Positions 47,936 to 55,428 of a stretch of 56,274 nucleotides of DNA are shown here, in pieces. Under the pieces are notes generated by a model. It was given only the letters and a program-made list of their open reading frames with translations. It made no database searches and was not told the DNA's origin. The position numbers were made by a program, and so were the translations under genes. The stretch spans positions 1 through 56,274 of the forward strand of contig JAGLOO010000016.1 of assembly GCA_023138875.1 (NCBI GenBank). The letters run 5' to 3'. The first letter of the stretch is position 1. Every line of letters begins with the position of its first letter. This stretch comes from Bacteroidales bacterium. GTDB lineage: Bacteria > Bacteroidota > Bacteroidia > Bacteroidales > GCA-2748055.

Positions 47936-48469
47936 TCATTTATTTGTCAGGTTGATCACCCTTCTGATTGCACTTTCCACACTCCCGCTGCTCTGAGGCA
48001 ATCCTTCACTTTTGAAGAATGCATACTGCATGCGTTTACTATTGGCATGGAAATAATTGCTCCACTTGTTCATTGCTTTCTCCCTTCGCTTCCCTGTGAA
48101 GTTAACCCTGATGAGTTTTTCCATGGTGTCAATCTCGCCCTGCCATAAAGCCTCTTTAAAGATCTTCCGGACCTTATCTGTCTCTTTCATCCTTTTCGGA
48201 AGCAGTTCAAGAATCTCTTCGAGTGCCCGTTTCGCATGGGTGTAATCAAGTACCTGCCAGGTTGCTTTGTCCGGAAAACGCCTGGCAAACAGCTCATCTG
48301 CACGTGACCATATCCAGGGTGCCCCGTCGCCGCAAAATACCACCCGTGAAACGGAGGAGGTATCTATTGCATCCAGATACGTTTCGATTAAACCGAAAGC
48401 ATAATCCTTTCCCTGCATCGTGGCATCGTATACCGGTTTGAACCCTTTGTCAATATTCCCATGAATAGT
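47936..48469 (-). pseudogene. Transposase fragment, ISLre2/ISKra4 (UPF0236)-like
   Basis: Residues visible include VVFCGDGAPWIWSRADELFA, WQVLDYTHAKRALEEILELL and the C-terminal SGSVESAIRRVINL. These are the pattern of the ISLre2/ISKra4 transposase group (GDGA-W-I and the S/G-VES motif). The annotated-length frame from 48418 is 160 residues. The same frame continues upstream to about 48469 (NPWTIHGNIDKGFKPVYDAT), so the ATG is not a true start. The C-terminus breaks off at LTNK, short of the usual end, so both ends are lost. The upstream end meets the integrase start. Confidence 0.75.
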
Positions 48470-49384
48470 CCAAGGGTTAAAGGTCTGATTGAATATTTTA
48501 ATGAGTACATCAAGTTTCGAAAAGACAGAAAAACTGTCCGTGGTACATTAAAGGAATTCATTACCATGAAGAACAGATTGATGAAATTTGATGAACACCG
48601 AAAGAAACCCACACTCTTGCATGATATTAATATTACATGGTCGGATCAGTTCGAAACATTTCTTCTCAATGAGATCAAGAATGGAGAGAAAAAGGGATAT
48701 GGTCTTGGTACAATTGAGAAAACATACACAGTTCTAATAACGGTGCTTTACCACTTTTATGAGCGAATAAGCCAATCAAAGATCATCATGACTGATGATT
48801 TCCAGAAAAAGGGTTTCAAACGTGGGAAGAAATCAAAGAATGAAGCAAATCCTTTGAATAAGGAGCAGTTCCAGACGCTATATTGTCATAAGTTTGAAGA
48901 AGAGCATCTGGAGTTAACCAAGAAACGATTCTGCCTACAGTGTACTACCGGACTGAGATTTGGCGATATTGACAGGATACTACCTAAAATGATAAAGAAT
49001 GATGTTCTTATCATTATTCCACATAAAACCATGCATTTAGAAGATCCCAAACCTGCCATAATCCCCCTAAATAAATATTCGAAAGAAATCTTGGATGAAT
49101 TCAACAATAACACTTCTTCTTTGCATATTAGGAATCAACCCTACAATCGGAATTTAATAGATGTATTCAATGTAATGAGAGAAAAATATCCTGATCTGGA
49201 TTTTGGAGGTTACAGTTCACATGATGGTAGAGATACATTTATCAGTATGGCAGTAGAACGTGGTGTTGATTTCAAGACAATTCTTGAGTGGACAGCACAG
49301 AGTTCATATTCAATAATGGATCGCTATATAAAGACCACTGAAGAACATAAAATACGAAAAATGGAAGAAACGTGGAATTTCTAA
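48461..49384 (+). CDS. Tyrosine-type integrase, probably 5'-truncated
   Basis: A 307-residue site-specific recombinase. A SAM-like core-binding domain lies at about 3-105 and the catalytic domain at about 130-300. Candidate catalytic residues are R166 (TTGLRFGDI), K189, H254 and R257 (SHDGRDTF), W277 in place of the second His, and the nucleophile Y289 (IMDRYI). The frame begins straight at the core-binding domain; Bacteroidota integrases of this type usually carry about 100 more N-terminal residues. The missing part coincides with the end of the transposase fragment on the other strand. It may be an inactive relic of an integrative element. Confidence 0.8.
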   Translation: MNSPRVKGLIEYFNEYIKFRKDRKTVRGTLKEFITMKNRLMKFDEHRKKPTLLHDINITWSDQFETFLLNEIKNGEKKGYGLGTIEKTYTVLITVLYHFYERISQSKIIMTDDFQKKGFKRGKKSKNEANPLNKEQFQTLYCHKFEEEHLELTKKRFCLQCTTGLRFGDIDRILPKMIKNDVLIIIPHKTMHLEDPKPAIIPLNKYSKEILDEFNNNTSSLHIRNQPYNRNLIDVFNVMREKYPDLDFGGYSSHDGRDTFISMAVERGVDFKTILEWTAQSSYSIMDRYIKTTEEHKIRKMEETWNF

Positions 49385-49898: not shown

Positions 49899-50198
49899 AT
49901 GTCATTCAACGAAACATACTACAAGTACCATCCCGAACTTATTAAATATGGGCGTCAATTGTGTGCTGTTAAAATCGATATCGATGATTTGGTGCAAGAA
50001 ACATTCTTGAAGTATCATATTGAACTCAGCAAAAATGTTGTAATAGAGAACACACGAGCATGGTTGTATAAGGTAATGCTGAATTTAGCAATAACTCAAA
50101 ACAATAAAAAGAACCTGCATGATACCAAGATCAAACAATATAAACGACCGGATATCGAGATAGGTATTGACGAAAAGTTTGCTAAAAAGGAAAGATGA
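49899..50198 (+). CDS. Small sigma-70 region-2-like protein
   Basis: A 99-residue protein that resembles only region 2 of an ECF sigma factor: YYKYHPELIKYGRQLCA, then VKIDIDDLVQETFLKYHIEL and NTRAWLYKVMLNLAITQNNK. It ends in a basic tail with no region 4. It has its own stop, and the next gene's ATG overlaps that stop (ATGA), so the short form appears to be organised and not an accidental break. It could bind core polymerase, or nucleic acid, or be a relic. The coupling to a recombinase is the notable point. Function unknown. Confidence 0.65.
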   Translation: MSFNETYYKYHPELIKYGRQLCAVKIDIDDLVQETFLKYHIELSKNVVIENTRAWLYKVMLNLAITQNNKKNLHDTKIKQYKRPDIEIGIDEKFAKKER

Positions 50199-50770
50199 AC
50201 AGATTTGCTGATTATATCGAGTACGATCATGCCCTCAACAAGGGGAAGGCACTATTAAATGATCCGAAAAGGTGCATTCTTGGTTTCTACATCATTTACA
50301 GCATTAACGTTGGATTGCGTATTTCAGATGTCTTAAAACTAAAGCATGTTGAGATAGGTGATTTGAATGTGGGTGGTGAAATTCAATTGAATGAACAAAA
50401 AACCGGGAAGTCAAGGACAATCACAATTAATAATGAAGTTTACAATGCCTATCGAAAACTTTTAGGGGTATTGAAGAAGAATGTCAAATACGATCAACAC
50501 GGTTATGTATTCGTATCACAAAAAGGCACGGTATTCTCTTACAAAAGCATTGACCGCTTATTGAAAGAGATATTCCGGACTAAAAAACTCCAAATCAGCA
50601 GCCATAGTTTACGCAAATCTTTCGCCAGAAGATTTTATGAGCAAAATAATAGGTCTGAGCATTCATTGATGCTTATAGGTGAAGCATTCAATCACTCATC
50701 ATTGAGTATAACCAAGCGATATTTAGGACTGCGGAAGGAGGAAGTAAAAAACATCTACCTATCACTGTAG
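50195..50770 (+). CDS. Minimal tyrosine recombinase (catalytic domain only)
   Basis: A 191-residue site-specific recombinase with the full active-site set: R42 (GLRISDVL), K69 (EQKTGKSR), H137 and R140 (SHSLRKSFARR), H167 (FNHSSLSIT) and nucleophile Y176 (TKRYLGL). There is no N-terminal core-binding SAM-like domain, so DNA grip would need a partner or another mode. The ATG overlaps the stop of the sigma-region-2-like gene by 4 bp, which suggests coupled translation. A perfect 20-bp palindrome lies 22 bp after the stop. It may be an active invertase or integrase of an undescribed small element. Confidence 0.85.
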   Translation: MNRFADYIEYDHALNKGKALLNDPKRCILGFYIIYSINVGLRISDVLKLKHVEIGDLNVGGEIQLNEQKTGKSRTITINNEVYNAYRKLLGVLKKNVKYDQHGYVFVSQKGTVFSYKSIDRLLKEIFRTKKLQISSHSLRKSFARRFYEQNNRSEHSLMLIGEAFNHSSLSITKRYLGLRKEEVKNIYLSL

Positions 50771-51015: not shown

Positions 51016-51282
51016 ATGAAATCTAAAAGGAAATACCGTAAACGACCATTGGAAGAGCACAATTCTGAAAGAATGAAGCACCTTTCTGGACTATTCTTGG
51101 AGTGCAGAAGATGGACAGGAATGAGCAGGAAGGATATCGAAGATGAATACGGGATATCACGTGCTGTTATCGAGAGAGTAGAATCGTCAACTGTGCCAAT
51201 GAATATTACACTAAGAACAATTCTGGAGATGGCTGATATCTACATGATCTCACCATCGGAACTGTTTGAAGACTTGGAATAA
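51016..51282 (+). CDS. Small XRE-type helix-turn-helix protein
   Basis: An 88-residue basic DNA-binding protein. The helix-turn-helix lies at about 36-57 (MSRKDIEDEYGISRAVIERV), followed by the family's third and fourth helices (TLRTILEMADIYMISPSELF). The first 20 residues are strongly basic (KSKRKYRKRPLEEH). Size and form suit a phage-like or mobile-element repressor, or an antitoxin-like regulator. No toxin gene is adjacent. It stands alone in a gene-poor stretch between the minimal recombinase and the DUF488 gene. Confidence 0.75.
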   Translation: MKSKRKYRKRPLEEHNSERMKHLSGLFLECRRWTGMSRKDIEDEYGISRAVIERVESSTVPMNITLRTILEMADIYMISPSELFEDLE

Positions 51283-52096: not shown

Positions 52097-52981
52097 ATGT
52101 ACTATCGCAGAAAGATACTGCTTACACTTCTGCAAGTGTTTGATAATAAACTGGAAAAAATGAGTTTGCAGAAGTTATTGATGTTACTTGCGAATAAACA
52201 ATCCATACCGGGTTTTTATTTCGTTCCTTACAAGTTTGGTTGCTATTCTTTTCAAGCAAATGCTGATCTTAAAACAATGATTAAATACGGTCAGGTAGGC
52301 GAGGAAGGAAACTCTTGGATTAAAACTGATCCAACCAACTATCTTCCAGAACTGAAAGAAAATGACCGTATGGCGTTAAGAGCAATAAAATGTTTGTATG
52401 GTGATAAATCCAAAGCAGAACTCATCCAACTAACTTATAGAAGATTTCCTTATTATGCCCTCAACAGCAATATTGCCCATGAAGTCCTCAACAATAAGGA
52501 ACTTCAAGCGATTGAAGAAATCAGACCTAAATATAGTAGTACAGTTCTGTTTACAATTGGTTACGAAGGGATAACGCTTGAACAGTATCTGAATAAATTA
52601 ATAAAACATGGTGTAGATGTTCTTTGTGACGTTCGAAAGAATTCCCTAAGCATGAAATACGGATTTAGTAAGTCCCAACTTCAACATTCTTGTAACGGTA
52701 TCGGCATTAAATATGTGCACTTACCTGAGTTGGGTATAGCATCCAACAAACGGCAAGAACTAAATACACAATCCGATTACGATAAATTATTTCTTCAATA
52801 CCAACAAGATGTTCTAACAAGTACCCGCACCCAACAGAATGAAATTCTTGAATTATTGAAATCTCACAAAAGGATTGCCCTAACCTGTTTTGAAGCCAAC
52901 ATTTGTCAATGCCATAGAAAACACTTGGCTGAAGAAATTTCCGTTTCGCCTAATTTCGAATTCGAATTGCAGCATATATAA
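52097..52981 (+). CDS. DUF488 protein with N-terminal SocA/Panacea-like domain
   Basis: A 294-residue cytoplasmic protein. Residues 1-140 resemble the DUF4065/SocA-like (Panacea antitoxin) helical domain: MSLQKLLMLLANKQ, then FYFVPYKFGCYSFQANADLK. Residues 150-294 are DUF488: LFTIGYEGITLEQYLNKLIK, the DVR motif at 178-180, KYGFSKSQLQ and the cysteine-rich ending LTCFEANICQCHRKHLAEEI (C264, C270, C272). DUF488 has no established biochemical activity. The stop is followed after one base by the start of an interrupted partner gene, so the two form a module. Such pairs tend to lie among mobile and defence genes; a defence role is inference. Confidence 0.75.
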   Translation: MYYRRKILLTLLQVFDNKLEKMSLQKLLMLLANKQSIPGFYFVPYKFGCYSFQANADLKTMIKYGQVGEEGNSWIKTDPTNYLPELKENDRMALRAIKCLYGDKSKAELIQLTYRRFPYYALNSNIAHEVLNNKELQAIEEIRPKYSSTVLFTIGYEGITLEQYLNKLIKHGVDVLCDVRKNSLSMKYGFSKSQLQHSCNGIGIKYVHLPELGIASNKRQELNTQSDYDKLFLQYQQDVLTSTRTQQNEILELLKSHKRIALTCFEANICQCHRKHLAEEISVSPNFEFELQHI

Positions 52982-52982
52982 A

Positions 52983-53021
52983 ATGGCATTGACCAAGATT
53001 CTAATCACAGTAAAGACTTAT
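52983..53021 (+). pseudogene. 5' piece (13 codons) of the DUF488 partner gene
   Basis: The codons read MALTKILITVKTY, and the frame is then interrupted by the insertion sequence. The 11-bp target duplication TAAAGACTTAT (53011-53021) is the end of this piece. Joining codon TAT (53019-53021) to 54649 restores one uninterrupted frame. The start lies one base after the DUF488 stop. Confidence 0.75.
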
Positions 53022-54637
53022 ATGGTTTCACAAAACTAATAACTGATTTATATTCAATAAGTTACAGGGCTATAAAATTACCCATTTCCTAACTTTCCGT
53101 AACGTGCAGATTTTCAAGATCATACAGCTGCTATTTCTATCAAATTTAACCATTTTTTATTCGTTTTCAGCCCTAAAATTGACTGGGTTAGGAAATATTA
53201 GTTTTATGAAAGCCTGCGACTTTATCGTTGTAATATTTTGTGTACTTGATATTTAATTTCCTAACTCTATATTTATTGGTATCCATCTCATGAAAAATTT
53301 CATAGACTTTCACAAAACTGGAGGATACCAATTATGCCGCATTCAAATTTGCTCTTTAACCTGGCAGACTTACCACCCGCCGTTAAATATGAAAAACTCT
53401 TTGAAAATCTTCCAATGCTTAAAGAAAACATCCCTAAAACAGGAAGACGACCAATAAGCAGAAACTGCATGTTTAAAAGTTTAATATACAAGTCATTAAG
53501 GCGGTTTCCATATCTGACAGATTTAAGTTTTGAACTCAACAATAATCCAAGTGTATCAAAAGCTTTAGGTTTTAACCCATTGAAACCAGCTCCTTCCACC
53601 GAACGTTTCTCATCATTTCTGCATGACACTGAACATCATGAAATCATCTCCATCCGGCAACAATTGGTGCAAGAATTAATCAACGTCGGGGCTGTATCCG
53701 GTAACTCTATTGCCATAGATTCTTGTCCCATTGTCGCGTTACTAAAAGAAAACAACTTAAAAACCTCCATAGCAGACAGATTTGATAAAACCAAAAAACC
53801 TGCCGGTGATCCAGATGCCCGATTAGGTGTCTTGATACATTTTCCAAGTCCATTTAAAAAAGAAGTCCGGTACTTCTGGGGGTATCGTAATCATGTGATT
53901 AATGATATCGATACTGAACTCCCAATCTGGGAAGTTACCAAACCGGCAAATGTCTCTGATATCAACGTTGCAAAGAATCTCATACAAGAGGCATGTTCCG
54001 TTTTCAATTTAAACATCCAATGGGTAATGGGCGATGCCGCCTATGATTCCGAGGACTTACTGAAATTCATCATCAATGATCTGAACGCATTGGCTATTAT
54101 TCCTCACAATCCAAGAAGAGAATCTAAAGGTCATCAGATCAAAGATGGCAAAGTGATTTGCGAAGCAAATCTCCAGATGTATCGCAAAGGCAAAATGTGT
54201 CCTAAAAAAACCGGGATCCTTTATTGCCAGTACACCTGTCCAATCGTTTATGATAAACAAACCCGATATCAACACATCACGTGTCCTATTATGCATCCGA
54301 AGTTTTTCAAGGGCAAGGGTTGTAATGTCCTTGTTCGGATGGAACCAAGTATCCGATCAGAAATTGGCTATGATACTCAGGAATTCAAAGAACTCTATAA
54401 AAAACGAACCTCCGTTGAGAGGGTATTCTCACGCCTGCTGGCCATTGCAATGCAACATCCAACAGTGAGAGGTTATAATGCTAATCGCAATCATGCAACT
54501 ATTGCTCATATCTCAGTTTTACTCGTTGCTCTAACAGCATTCCAGACAGGGCAACAGGATAAAATGAGATTTGTGAAATCATTTGTACCAAATTTTTTAA
54601 CTTGAAATCTCATCTGAATTAGTTTTGTGAAGCCCTA
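53022..54637 (+). mobile_element. Complete insertion sequence, about 1.6 kb, with 11-bp target duplication
   Basis: The element is bounded by TAAAGACTTAT at 53011-53021 and 54638-54648. The terminal inverted repeats are GGTTTCACAAAACTAAT (53024-53040) and, on the other strand, GGCTTCACAAAACTAAT (54634-54618), with 16 of 17 positions matching. It carries one intact transposase gene. The clean duplication and intact gene indicate a recent insertion. It splits the partner gene of the DUF488 protein. Confidence 0.85.
53334..54605 (+). CDS. DDE transposase (IS1182/IS4-like)
   Basis: A full-length 423-residue transposase. N-terminal residues resemble the IS1182-type start (YEKLFENLPMLKENIPKTGR). 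Catalytic residues are D129 (SIAIDSCPI), D234 (WVMGDAAYDSEDL) and E362 (RTSVERVFSRLL). A Cys-rich insert (CPKKTGILYCQYTCPI, HITCPIMH) lies between the second Asp and the Glu, as in IS1182-type enzymes. The gene is intact and sits between good inverted repeats, so the element is probably still mobile. Family assignment below DDE level is my reading only. Confidence 0.88.
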   Translation: MPHSNLLFNLADLPPAVKYEKLFENLPMLKENIPKTGRRPISRNCMFKSLIYKSLRRFPYLTDLSFELNNNPSVSKALGFNPLKPAPSTERFSSFLHDTEHHEIISIRQQLVQELINVGAVSGNSIAIDSCPIVALLKENNLKTSIADRFDKTKKPAGDPDARLGVLIHFPSPFKKEVRYFWGYRNHVINDIDTELPIWEVTKPANVSDINVAKNLIQEACSVFNLNIQWVMGDAAYDSEDLLKFIINDLNALAIIPHNPRRESKGHQIKDGKVICEANLQMYRKGKMCPKKTGILYCQYTCPIVYDKQTRYQHITCPIMHPKFFKGKGCNVLVRMEPSIRSEIGYDTQEFKELYKKRTSVERVFSRLLAIAMQHPTVRGYNANRNHATIAHISVLLVALTAFQTGQQDKMRFVKSFVPNFLT

Positions 54638-54648
54638 TAAAGACTTAT

Positions 54649-55428
54649 CCTGCCATATCTACAAAATACGATGAACTTGTTTGCACTGCAGGTTTTCTCG
54701 AAGATGGTTCATGGATAAGAATTTACCCAATTCAATTCCGTAATAAACCGTACACTGAACAATACAAGAAATATCAATGGATTGAATTGGATATTGTAAA
54801 AAATGATAGTGATTTTCGTCCTGAGAGTTATCGACAAGTATCAATCGATACGCCTGTTGAACCGAAAGATATAATCAAACCAGACGGTAGTATTTGGGAA
54901 GCACGTAGGGAATATGTAATGAACAAAGTGTACACCAATTTAGACACATTAATAAAAGAAGCAAAGAATAAGGATGTTTGTACTTCTTTGGCAGTATTCA
55001 AACCCGCTGAAGTCTTGAATTTTGTTTTTGAAGAAGTGAAGGAGAGAGAATGGTCGCAAAAAAAAATGGTGCAATTCAGTCAATTGAATTTATTCGAAAG
55101 TAACACCGAGAAAAAACTAAAAGTAGTACGGAAGTTACCATACAAATTTTCATTCGTATTTATTGATGATGAAGGTCGCAAGAGTAAATTGATGATTGAG
55201 GATTGGGAAACGGGTGAGTTGTTCTGGAATTGCCTTCGAAGACATGATGGTGACGAACAGAAAGCATGTTCCGATGTTAGAAAGAAATATTTTGATGATT
55301 TTGCAAAAACCAAAGACTTACACTTTTTCTTAGGTACAACAAAGGTTCATCACTTCGTTGCTCCAAACCCATTTATCATAATTGGCACTTTCCACCCCAA
55401 GAAGAAAGAACAGTTAAAACTCTTTTGA
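54649..55428 (+). pseudogene. 3' part of the unknown DUF488 partner gene, cut by the insertion sequence
   Basis: Reading from 54649 in the restored frame gives PAISTKYDELVCTAGFLEDG, SWIRIYPIQFR, then FRPESYRQVSID and a C-terminal part with QLNLFESNTEKKLKVVRKLP, FSFVFIDDEGRKSKLMIEDW and FHPKKKEQLKLF. With the 13 upstream codons the intact protein would be 272 residues. An internal ATG at 54787 leaves a 213-residue frame that might still be translated. I do not recognise the family. The VCTAGFLEDGSWIRIYP segment suggests a compact beta fold. The gene starts one base after the DUF488 stop, so the products probably act together. Confidence 0.7.

Follow-up and report, generated by a model that had tools for sequence, protein, structure and literature searches.

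What is the two-gene module in which a gene for a DUF488 protein is followed, one base after its stop codon, by a second gene that an insertion sequence (IS) has cut in two? The locus lies at positions 52,097 to 55,428 of a stretch of Bacteroidales DNA (contig JAGLOO010000016.1 of assembly GCA_023138875.1, positions 1 to 56,274; this whole stretch of 56,274 nucleotides is called here the window). The original prediction, made from the letters and open reading frames (ORFs) of the window, regarded the two genes as a functional pair of unknown biochemistry, possibly of a costly or defence type, with a second member that could not be placed. Most of this picture (the pairing, the antitoxin-like domain, the link to defence and the loss of the second gene) agrees with the results presented below; the exception is the description of the pair as unknown.

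Identity of the gene pair and its insertion sequence

Both proteins match the profiles of a single system in PADLOC-DB (version 2.0.0). The DUF488 protein aligns with the entire PDC-M19A profile (E = 9.4e-123, positions 1-294 of 294) and the product of the 3′ piece of the second gene aligns with PDC-M19B (E = 3.5e-117, positions 11-269 of 269). Since both profiles are matched by adjacent genes, the window holds a broken copy of a catalogued defence candidate: as judged from sequence comparison, the locus represents PDC-M19, a mobile module of two genes and a candidate for phage defence, in a copy disabled by the IS. It shares with the PADLOC entry the profile matches and the adjacency of its genes but differs from it in that M19B is not intact. 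The second gene, hereafter M19B, can therefore be placed, and the defence-type character proposed for the pair is in line with its PADLOC entry, a defence activity of the module being what we infer rather than observe. In the available text of an archaeal survey, the PADLOC candidates stem from a guilt-by-embedding screen and most of the PDC systems are without experimental validation (PMC12988326; here and below, cited papers stand for the parts of their text that were available). The name PDC-M19 was absent from the literature searched, in which no mechanism for the pair was found either. Burroughs and Aravind (2023) reportedly treat related proteins and may already describe part of what is presented here.

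The ORF coordinates confirm that the second gene starts (ATG at position 52,983) one base past the DUF488 stop. As predicted, too, an IS interrupts this gene behind its 13th codon, and the target-site duplications on either side of the element are exact over 11 bp (Table 1). The 3′ piece aligns with positions 11-269 of the PDC-M19B profile and the 13-codon 5′ piece resembles, in the alignment, the start of intact relatives, so that the two pieces are to all appearances parts of one gene. The inverted ends of the element (23 nt, 91% complementary, 53,018-53,040 and 54,618-54,640) reach a few bases into the target repeats. Its transposase matches the Pfam family DDE_Tnp_1 (E = 2.6e-15) and the NCBIfam IS1182 profile (E = 1.9e-24, although the score of 86 bits falls short of the cut-off of 270). 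Because the element is single-copy in its own assembly (4.79 Mb, 87 contigs), only the exact repeats and the open transposase frame speak for the 'fresh' insertion that had been proposed.

Table 1. Features of the PDC-M19 locus in the window (positions are those of the whole stretch)
Feature	Position	Strand	Size	Remarks
PDC-M19A (DUF488 gene)	52097-52981	+	294 aa	open frame
PDC-M19B, 5′ piece	52983-53021	+	13 codons	ahead of the insertion; based on sequence and translation
Target-site duplication, left copy	53011-53021		11 bp	TAAAGACTTAT
Insertion sequence	53022-54637		1616 bp	IS1182-like, DDE, inverted ends
Transposase ORF	53334-54605	+	423 aa	DDE, open
Target-site duplication, right copy	54638-54648		11 bp	TAAAGACTTAT, exact repeat of the left copy
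PDC-M19B, 3′ piece (P0001)	54640-55428	+	262 aa	perhaps a dual-OB-like fold (weak assignment)
Internal clamp-binding-like motif	55081-55095	+		QLNLF, residues 148-152 of P0001
C-terminal clamp-binding-like motif	55411-55425	+		QLKLF, last five residues of P0001

Pairing of M19A with M19B and one-sided decay

M19A and M19B are near-obligatory neighbours. M19B loci were gathered from plasmids, one phage, viral contigs and genomes; 157 were scanned, of which 155 carry M19B, the remaining two having been chosen for carrying M19A alone, and the set includes duplicates (four pairs among the intact proteins). A DUF488 gene lies within 2 kb of M19B in 150 of the 155 loci, which rejects adjacency by chance and supports the view of the two genes as a real pair; the five loci without this neighbour are a Sulfolobus plasmid (L011) and four contig ends. 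The frames of both genes, measured from stop to stop, overlap or are at most 41 nt apart (68 neighbours of the representatives at 70% identity). Homologues are thus usually adjacent, and intact relatives of the second gene are common, the opposite of the two outcomes that the original prediction had named as telling against it.

Four layouts were found: a DUF488 gene with an N-terminal domain upstream of M19B on the same strand (113/155 loci), a DUF488 gene without such a domain upstream (13/155), the two genes tail-to-tail (22/155) and DUF488 downstream on the same strand (2/155). Bacteroidota mostly have DUF488 followed by M19B, and plasmids and phages of other phyla often present the tail-to-tail arrangement; M19B proteins are only 31% identical between the two main layouts.

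The pair is patchily distributed. M19B is present in two of the 28 genomes of the family (one of them a contig-end fragment) and, counting weak hits and remnants, in 22 of the 395 genomes sampled from the phylum; this sample was taken as Bacteroidota, judging from the named relatives, and two control genomes, Synechococcus elongatus and Methanosarcina acetivorans, were also positive in the search. A match of some kind to the M19A profile occurs in 65 of the 395 genomes and the full-length form in 22 only, 20 of which also have M19B or a remnant of it. Among mobile elements, M19B was detected in 22 of 72,556 plasmid records and in seven of 50,697 phage records, all of them Gordonia phages.

M19B decays while M19A stays open. 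Two partly overlapping samples (395 genomes of the phylum and 395 of the class) were searched with both profiles, and an open full-length M19A was found in 41 distinct genomes, in which the adjoining M19B is intact in 29, broken in eight (single lesions in draft genomes being possible sequencing errors) and absent in four (G327, G387, G615 and G728). The broken copies comprise the window, with its IS, three genes with stops (G164, G038 and G043), two split genes (G419 and G535) and two remnants (G189 and G305). Conversely, all 30 genomes with an intact M19B (the 29 and G077) keep an open DUF488 partner; both genes are broken in G456. The contrast between 12/41 genomes with an impaired M19B and 0/30 with an impaired partner gives a two-sided p of about 0.0005 in a sign test calculated by hand, or about 0.001 with 11 independent events, the G038 and G043 loci being 99.5% identical and sharing one event. 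The tendency of the second gene to be lost, as originally proposed, is thus borne out. The retained M19A genes do not look degraded: the patterns CxE...CHR, F.P...G, GYxG and DVR.N are intact in 12/12 genomes with an impaired M19B, and are present in 29, 27, 29 and 28, respectively, of the 29 genomes with an intact one.

Left out of this count were G084, whose weak M19B hit falls in a frame of 353 aa, G015, with a contig-end fragment, G242, with a divergent M19A-like frame of 283 aa (G242:C146:14854-15681) that was scored in two parts and possibly belongs to another partner system, and further M19A hits that span a single domain; no M19B hit was found anywhere in genome G242. In G728, the M19B slot after the open M19A (L263, just after position 1300) holds an unrelated ORF of about 115 aa, presumably DUF3024-like.

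Domains of M19A, motifs of M19B and genomic surroundings

In Bacteroidota, M19A couples an antitoxin-like domain to DUF488. The window protein consists of an N-terminal domain (approximately residues 1-148) resembling SocA and the C-terminal domain of DarG, and of a DUF488 domain (residues 161-279; Pfam PF04343, E = 2e-25, 90.2 bits against a gathering cut-off of 22.2), in which C264, E266 and the C272-H-R stretch are invariant in 71 of 71 M19A proteins. A Foldseek search with its AlphaFold2 model (predicted local distance difference test, pLDDT, 95.1) pointed to 7yk3, the structure of a DarTG complex whose chain B is named DNA ADP-ribosyl glycohydrolase, i.e., DarG (probability 1.00, E = 2.9e-3, template modelling (TM) score to the target 0.52). 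This entry is the best by probability and the second by E-value, behind a methyltransferase with a probability of 0.47; Rossmann-like and protein tyrosine phosphatase (PTP)-fold entries were also matched, weakly. At E-values up to 0.1, the N-terminal domain of 15 of 19 relatives matches the NCBIfam DarG profile (best E = 5.9e-5) and that of four of the 19 the SocA profile (best E = 1.3e-3), and, with the limit set at E = 1, Pfam SocA_Panacea (PF13274) matches 34 of 71 relatives (best 4.5e-4). The SocA/Panacea-like N-terminus originally proposed has support at the level of the family; in the window protein, SocA_Panacea is not matched and the DarG match is weak (E = 0.025 for the full protein and 0.011 for the N-terminal domain alone, 15.1 bits against a cut-off of 250, over profile positions 180-250 of 338). 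Similarly, a sequence profile search of the PDB with this domain gave a weak match to DarG (E = 0.033) behind a designed protein (E = 0.019).

The part of the protein that precedes DUF488 varies: it is SocA/DarG-like in most Bacteroidota copies, contains HTH_3 on a Streptomyces plasmid (L007:7762-8604, minus strand) and HTH_59 on two viral contigs (L040:7292-7939 and L041:7309-7938), and is missing in seven other aligned convergent partners. On two archaeal plasmids, the neighbour of M19B is a fusion of ParB_N, a helix-turn-helix (HTH) and DUF488 (L272:5082-6164 in Haloquadratum and L213:2939-3988 in Saccharolobus). Such archaeal fusions, which join DUF488 to a DNA-binding regulator and of which the ParB part is absent from M19A, have been described in the accessible text of PMC12704722, where CTP binding is reported for a ParB-fold DUF488-HTH fusion of archaea that may be neither of these two. 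No DUF488 was found within the stretch examined around two archaeal loci (L011 and L273), and a search of viral contigs for further archaeal M19B yielded none that were new.

M19B carries two conserved short motifs of the form QxxLF, one internal and one at the tail, resembling those by which proteins bind the bacterial sliding clamp. In 139 distinct intact M19B proteins, the columns of the internal motif contain Q in 127, L/I/F in 139 and F/L in 137, and are flanked by a gapped, unconserved alignment. In the 70 representatives obtained by clustering at 70% identity, the internal site retains Q in 65, L/I/F in 70 and F in 65; by a lax pattern, 69 of them have at least one motif (the exception is the Sulfolobus protein) and 51 have both. 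A strict QxxLF no more than three residues from the end is present in 92 of the 139 M19B proteins versus two of 399 neighbouring proteins; the lax C-terminal penta- or hexapeptide form in 108/139 versus 11/399; and two or more QxxLF in 76/139 versus 0/399. In total, QxxLF occurs 207 times in M19B, compared with a mean of 6.4 and a maximum of 13 in shuffled sequences. Some of the non-strict tails are of a longer type (QLKLNF, QYFLDL or QFSLDL), which is a recognised class of clamp motif, and others have no tail motif. The internal QLNLF of the window is, we presume, identical to a known polymerase motif. As far as the available text of PMC9690074 goes, the bacterial clamp consensus is QL(S/D)LF and the toxin SocB reaches DnaN through a clamp motif; by analogy, M19B could bind the clamp through its QxxLF motifs.

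The AlphaFold2 model of the M19B 3′ piece (pLDDT 91.4, predicted TM score 0.88) has low pLDDT in residues 1-10 (68), 141-150 (77), 151-160 (62) and 261-262 (64), with a mean of 87 for residues 251-260. A helix ends at Q148; the remaining residues of the internal motif are coil, as is the tail. In the model, the internal motif thus lies in a flexible segment, and the tail motif partly in one. Foldseek returned weak matches only, the best being the paired oligonucleotide/oligosaccharide-binding (OB) folds of Teb1 (E = 0.046). Pfam DuOB (PF22557) was matched by three of 11 diverse members (best E = 0.0019) and two of 84 in a second set, with no match in the window protein, and sequence searches of solved structures with M19B gave nothing convincing.

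To survey the surroundings of the pair, 145 of the 399 neighbouring genes, belonging to 25 of the 73 loci, were scanned. The first 25 of the 349 PADLOC families detected include type I restriction-modification (two or three genes), type IIG (two genes) and mads_2 (seven genes), and Pfam indicates mixed metabolism besides. Restriction-modification genes are thus near some copies; we claim no enrichment, the scan having no control regions as a baseline. On three plasmids (L006, L010 and L012), the pair is near copper, other heavy-metal or chromate genes, in mobile cargo regions. In the Gordonia phage Eviarto, it is flanked by the immunity repressor on one side and the integrase on the other (L013:3997-8065), an interval in which genes for defence against superinfection are often found in phages. 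In the window, the region upstream of the pair contains a tyrosine recombinase remnant (48,461-49,384), a short sigma-factor-like ORF (49,899-50,198), the C-terminal half of an integrase (50,195-50,770) and an HTH protein (51,016-51,282). In Sulfolobales, a small ORF touches or overlaps the end of M19B (L011:5828-6334 and L213:4864-5355); it looks nuclease-like by eye (FEMK/FEAK), with sub-threshold Pfam hits only.

Possible mode of action and alternative explanations

Two known systems resemble parts of PDC-M19. The type VI toxin-antitoxin system SocAB of Caulobacter likewise has a SocA-like domain in one protein and a clamp-type motif in the other. M19B, however, is a protein of roughly 270 aa that may contain OB folds, M19A has DUF488 in addition, and tail-to-tail variants of PDC-M19 exist. 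A GPV motif is conserved in SocA/Panacea antitoxins according to the available part of PMC8832971; the window protein has GCY at the conserved G48, and no GPV occurs there among 23 listed sequences. PDC-M19 was therefore not filed as SocAB, from which it departs in having DUF488, in how large M19B is and how it folds, and in lacking the GPV motif. The N-terminal domain of M19A resembles the C-terminal part of DarG, as seen in the 7yk3 fold and the NCBIfam matches, but the profile matches listed include neither a macrodomain in M19A nor a DarT in M19B, unlike in DarTG.

We tentatively favour, while giving it somewhat less than an even chance, the interpretation of PDC-M19 as a toxin-antitoxin-like module of SocAB-like logic with a clamp-docking effector, disabled here by the IS. 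M19B would be the effector: it would dock on the bacterial sliding clamp via its QxxLF motifs, its OB-like folds may engage DNA at the replication fork and, once released, e.g., during phage infection, it would block or damage replication. M19A would be the restraining partner, whose DarG/SocA-like domain may bind M19B directly or pass it to a protease, with the DUF488 domain serving perhaps as an enzyme or, within the complex, as a regulatory element. The C-terminal domain of DarG blocks DarT by mimicry of single-stranded DNA, according to the available text of PMC11481870; if the OB-like folds of M19B bind single-stranded DNA, such mimicry might, speculatively, also restrain M19B. If the effector is costly and its partner an antidote, loss of the former and retention of the latter, as in the window, would be the expected outcome.

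Toxicity and clamp binding are the weakest steps of this interpretation, and several observations weigh against it. The assignment of OB folds to M19B, which comes from model comparison, is weak: proteasome subunits occupy Foldseek ranks 2-7, at lower probability, and Pot1 comes at rank 16. The invariant D, E and R residues of M19B may indicate that it is an enzyme and not a poison that docks, and M19A without M19B (4/41 genomes) could mean that M19A has a job of its own. The DUF488 partners of 22 of the 155 loci are placed tail-to-tail and devoid of the antitoxin-like domain, which is unusual for a toxin-antitoxin operon. QxxLF is also present in 78 of 152 DUF488-side proteins, and the Haloquadratum M19B, from an archaeon, has an internal QAKLF and no PCNA-like tail.

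The last two observations favour an alternative that we regard as quite unlikely, namely that the QxxLF motifs of M19B dock M19A or another host protein instead of DnaN, in a defence or toxin-antitoxin module with a different target. The motif is short and the pattern can arise otherwise: in aligned relatives, the DUF488-side QxxLF takes the form QKLLF and is part of a confidently modelled helix in the N-terminal domain, and for this reason we rejected it as evidence. On the other hand, another ligand would hardly explain the two motif copies in most M19B representatives, the existence of both penta- and hexapeptide tail forms and the match to the published clamp consensus. The main rival, which seems to us somewhat unlikely, keeps the clamp and dispenses with toxicity: M19B would be a DNA-binding, clamp-docking adaptor that brings the DUF488 enzyme to replication forks or invading DNA, where the latter would remove or edit a modification or take part in repair. 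A DNA-processing pair of this kind would suit the constancy of DUF488 across layouts in which the N-terminal domain is SocA/DarG-like, HTH_3, HTH_59, ParB-HTH or missing, the invariant cysteine, glutamate and C-H-R residues of M19A and its weak Rossmann-like and PTP-fold matches. It predicts neither the antitoxin-like domain nor a decay restricted to M19B, and the patchy occurrence of the genes in the phylum is unlike that of housekeeping repair. Ordinary decay of a mobile-island gene pair that has no present function in the window genome is improbable to our minds; the local M19B is split, allowing no full-length product, and its neighbours include recombinase fragments, but this explanation applies to the window copy only, where M19A is open with the residues of the family, and both genes are open in 29 of the 41 genomes.

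A broader version of the toxin-antitoxin-like interpretation would have M19B found a new family of clamp-docking effectors in bacteria, phages, plasmids and archaea, with DUF488 proteins as dedicated partner and antidote and a peptide that tracks the clamp of the host (QxxLF or QxxLx[LF] in the bacterial proteins and PCNA-like tails in some of the archaeal ones). Archaea use PCNA as their clamp, and three of the four archaeal M19B tails resemble the PCNA motif (QPGLDSF in Natronococcus, NVKLDDFI and NVSFDKFI in Sulfolobales). Because none of the four fits the full consensus Qxx[I/L]xxFF, this version becomes less probable, and we consider it unlikely. The idea that the docking motif switches cleanly from bacteria to archaea was not upheld, given the incomplete tails, the Haloquadratum motif and the 79% identity of the two Sulfolobales sequences.

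In Pfam, DUF488 still counts among the domains of unknown function. For PDC-M19, the motifs single out a definite candidate target, the replication clamp. Few toxins are known to hit the clamp, among them SocB (PMC9690074, available text) and RipA of Streptococcus pneumoniae, which would share its target with M19B and, in the accessible part of PMC12795458, has no homology to SocB. If the proposed mode of action of PDC-M19 is correct, attack on the clamp would be a strategy at which unrelated proteins have arrived repeatedly, and a role could be given to DUF488.

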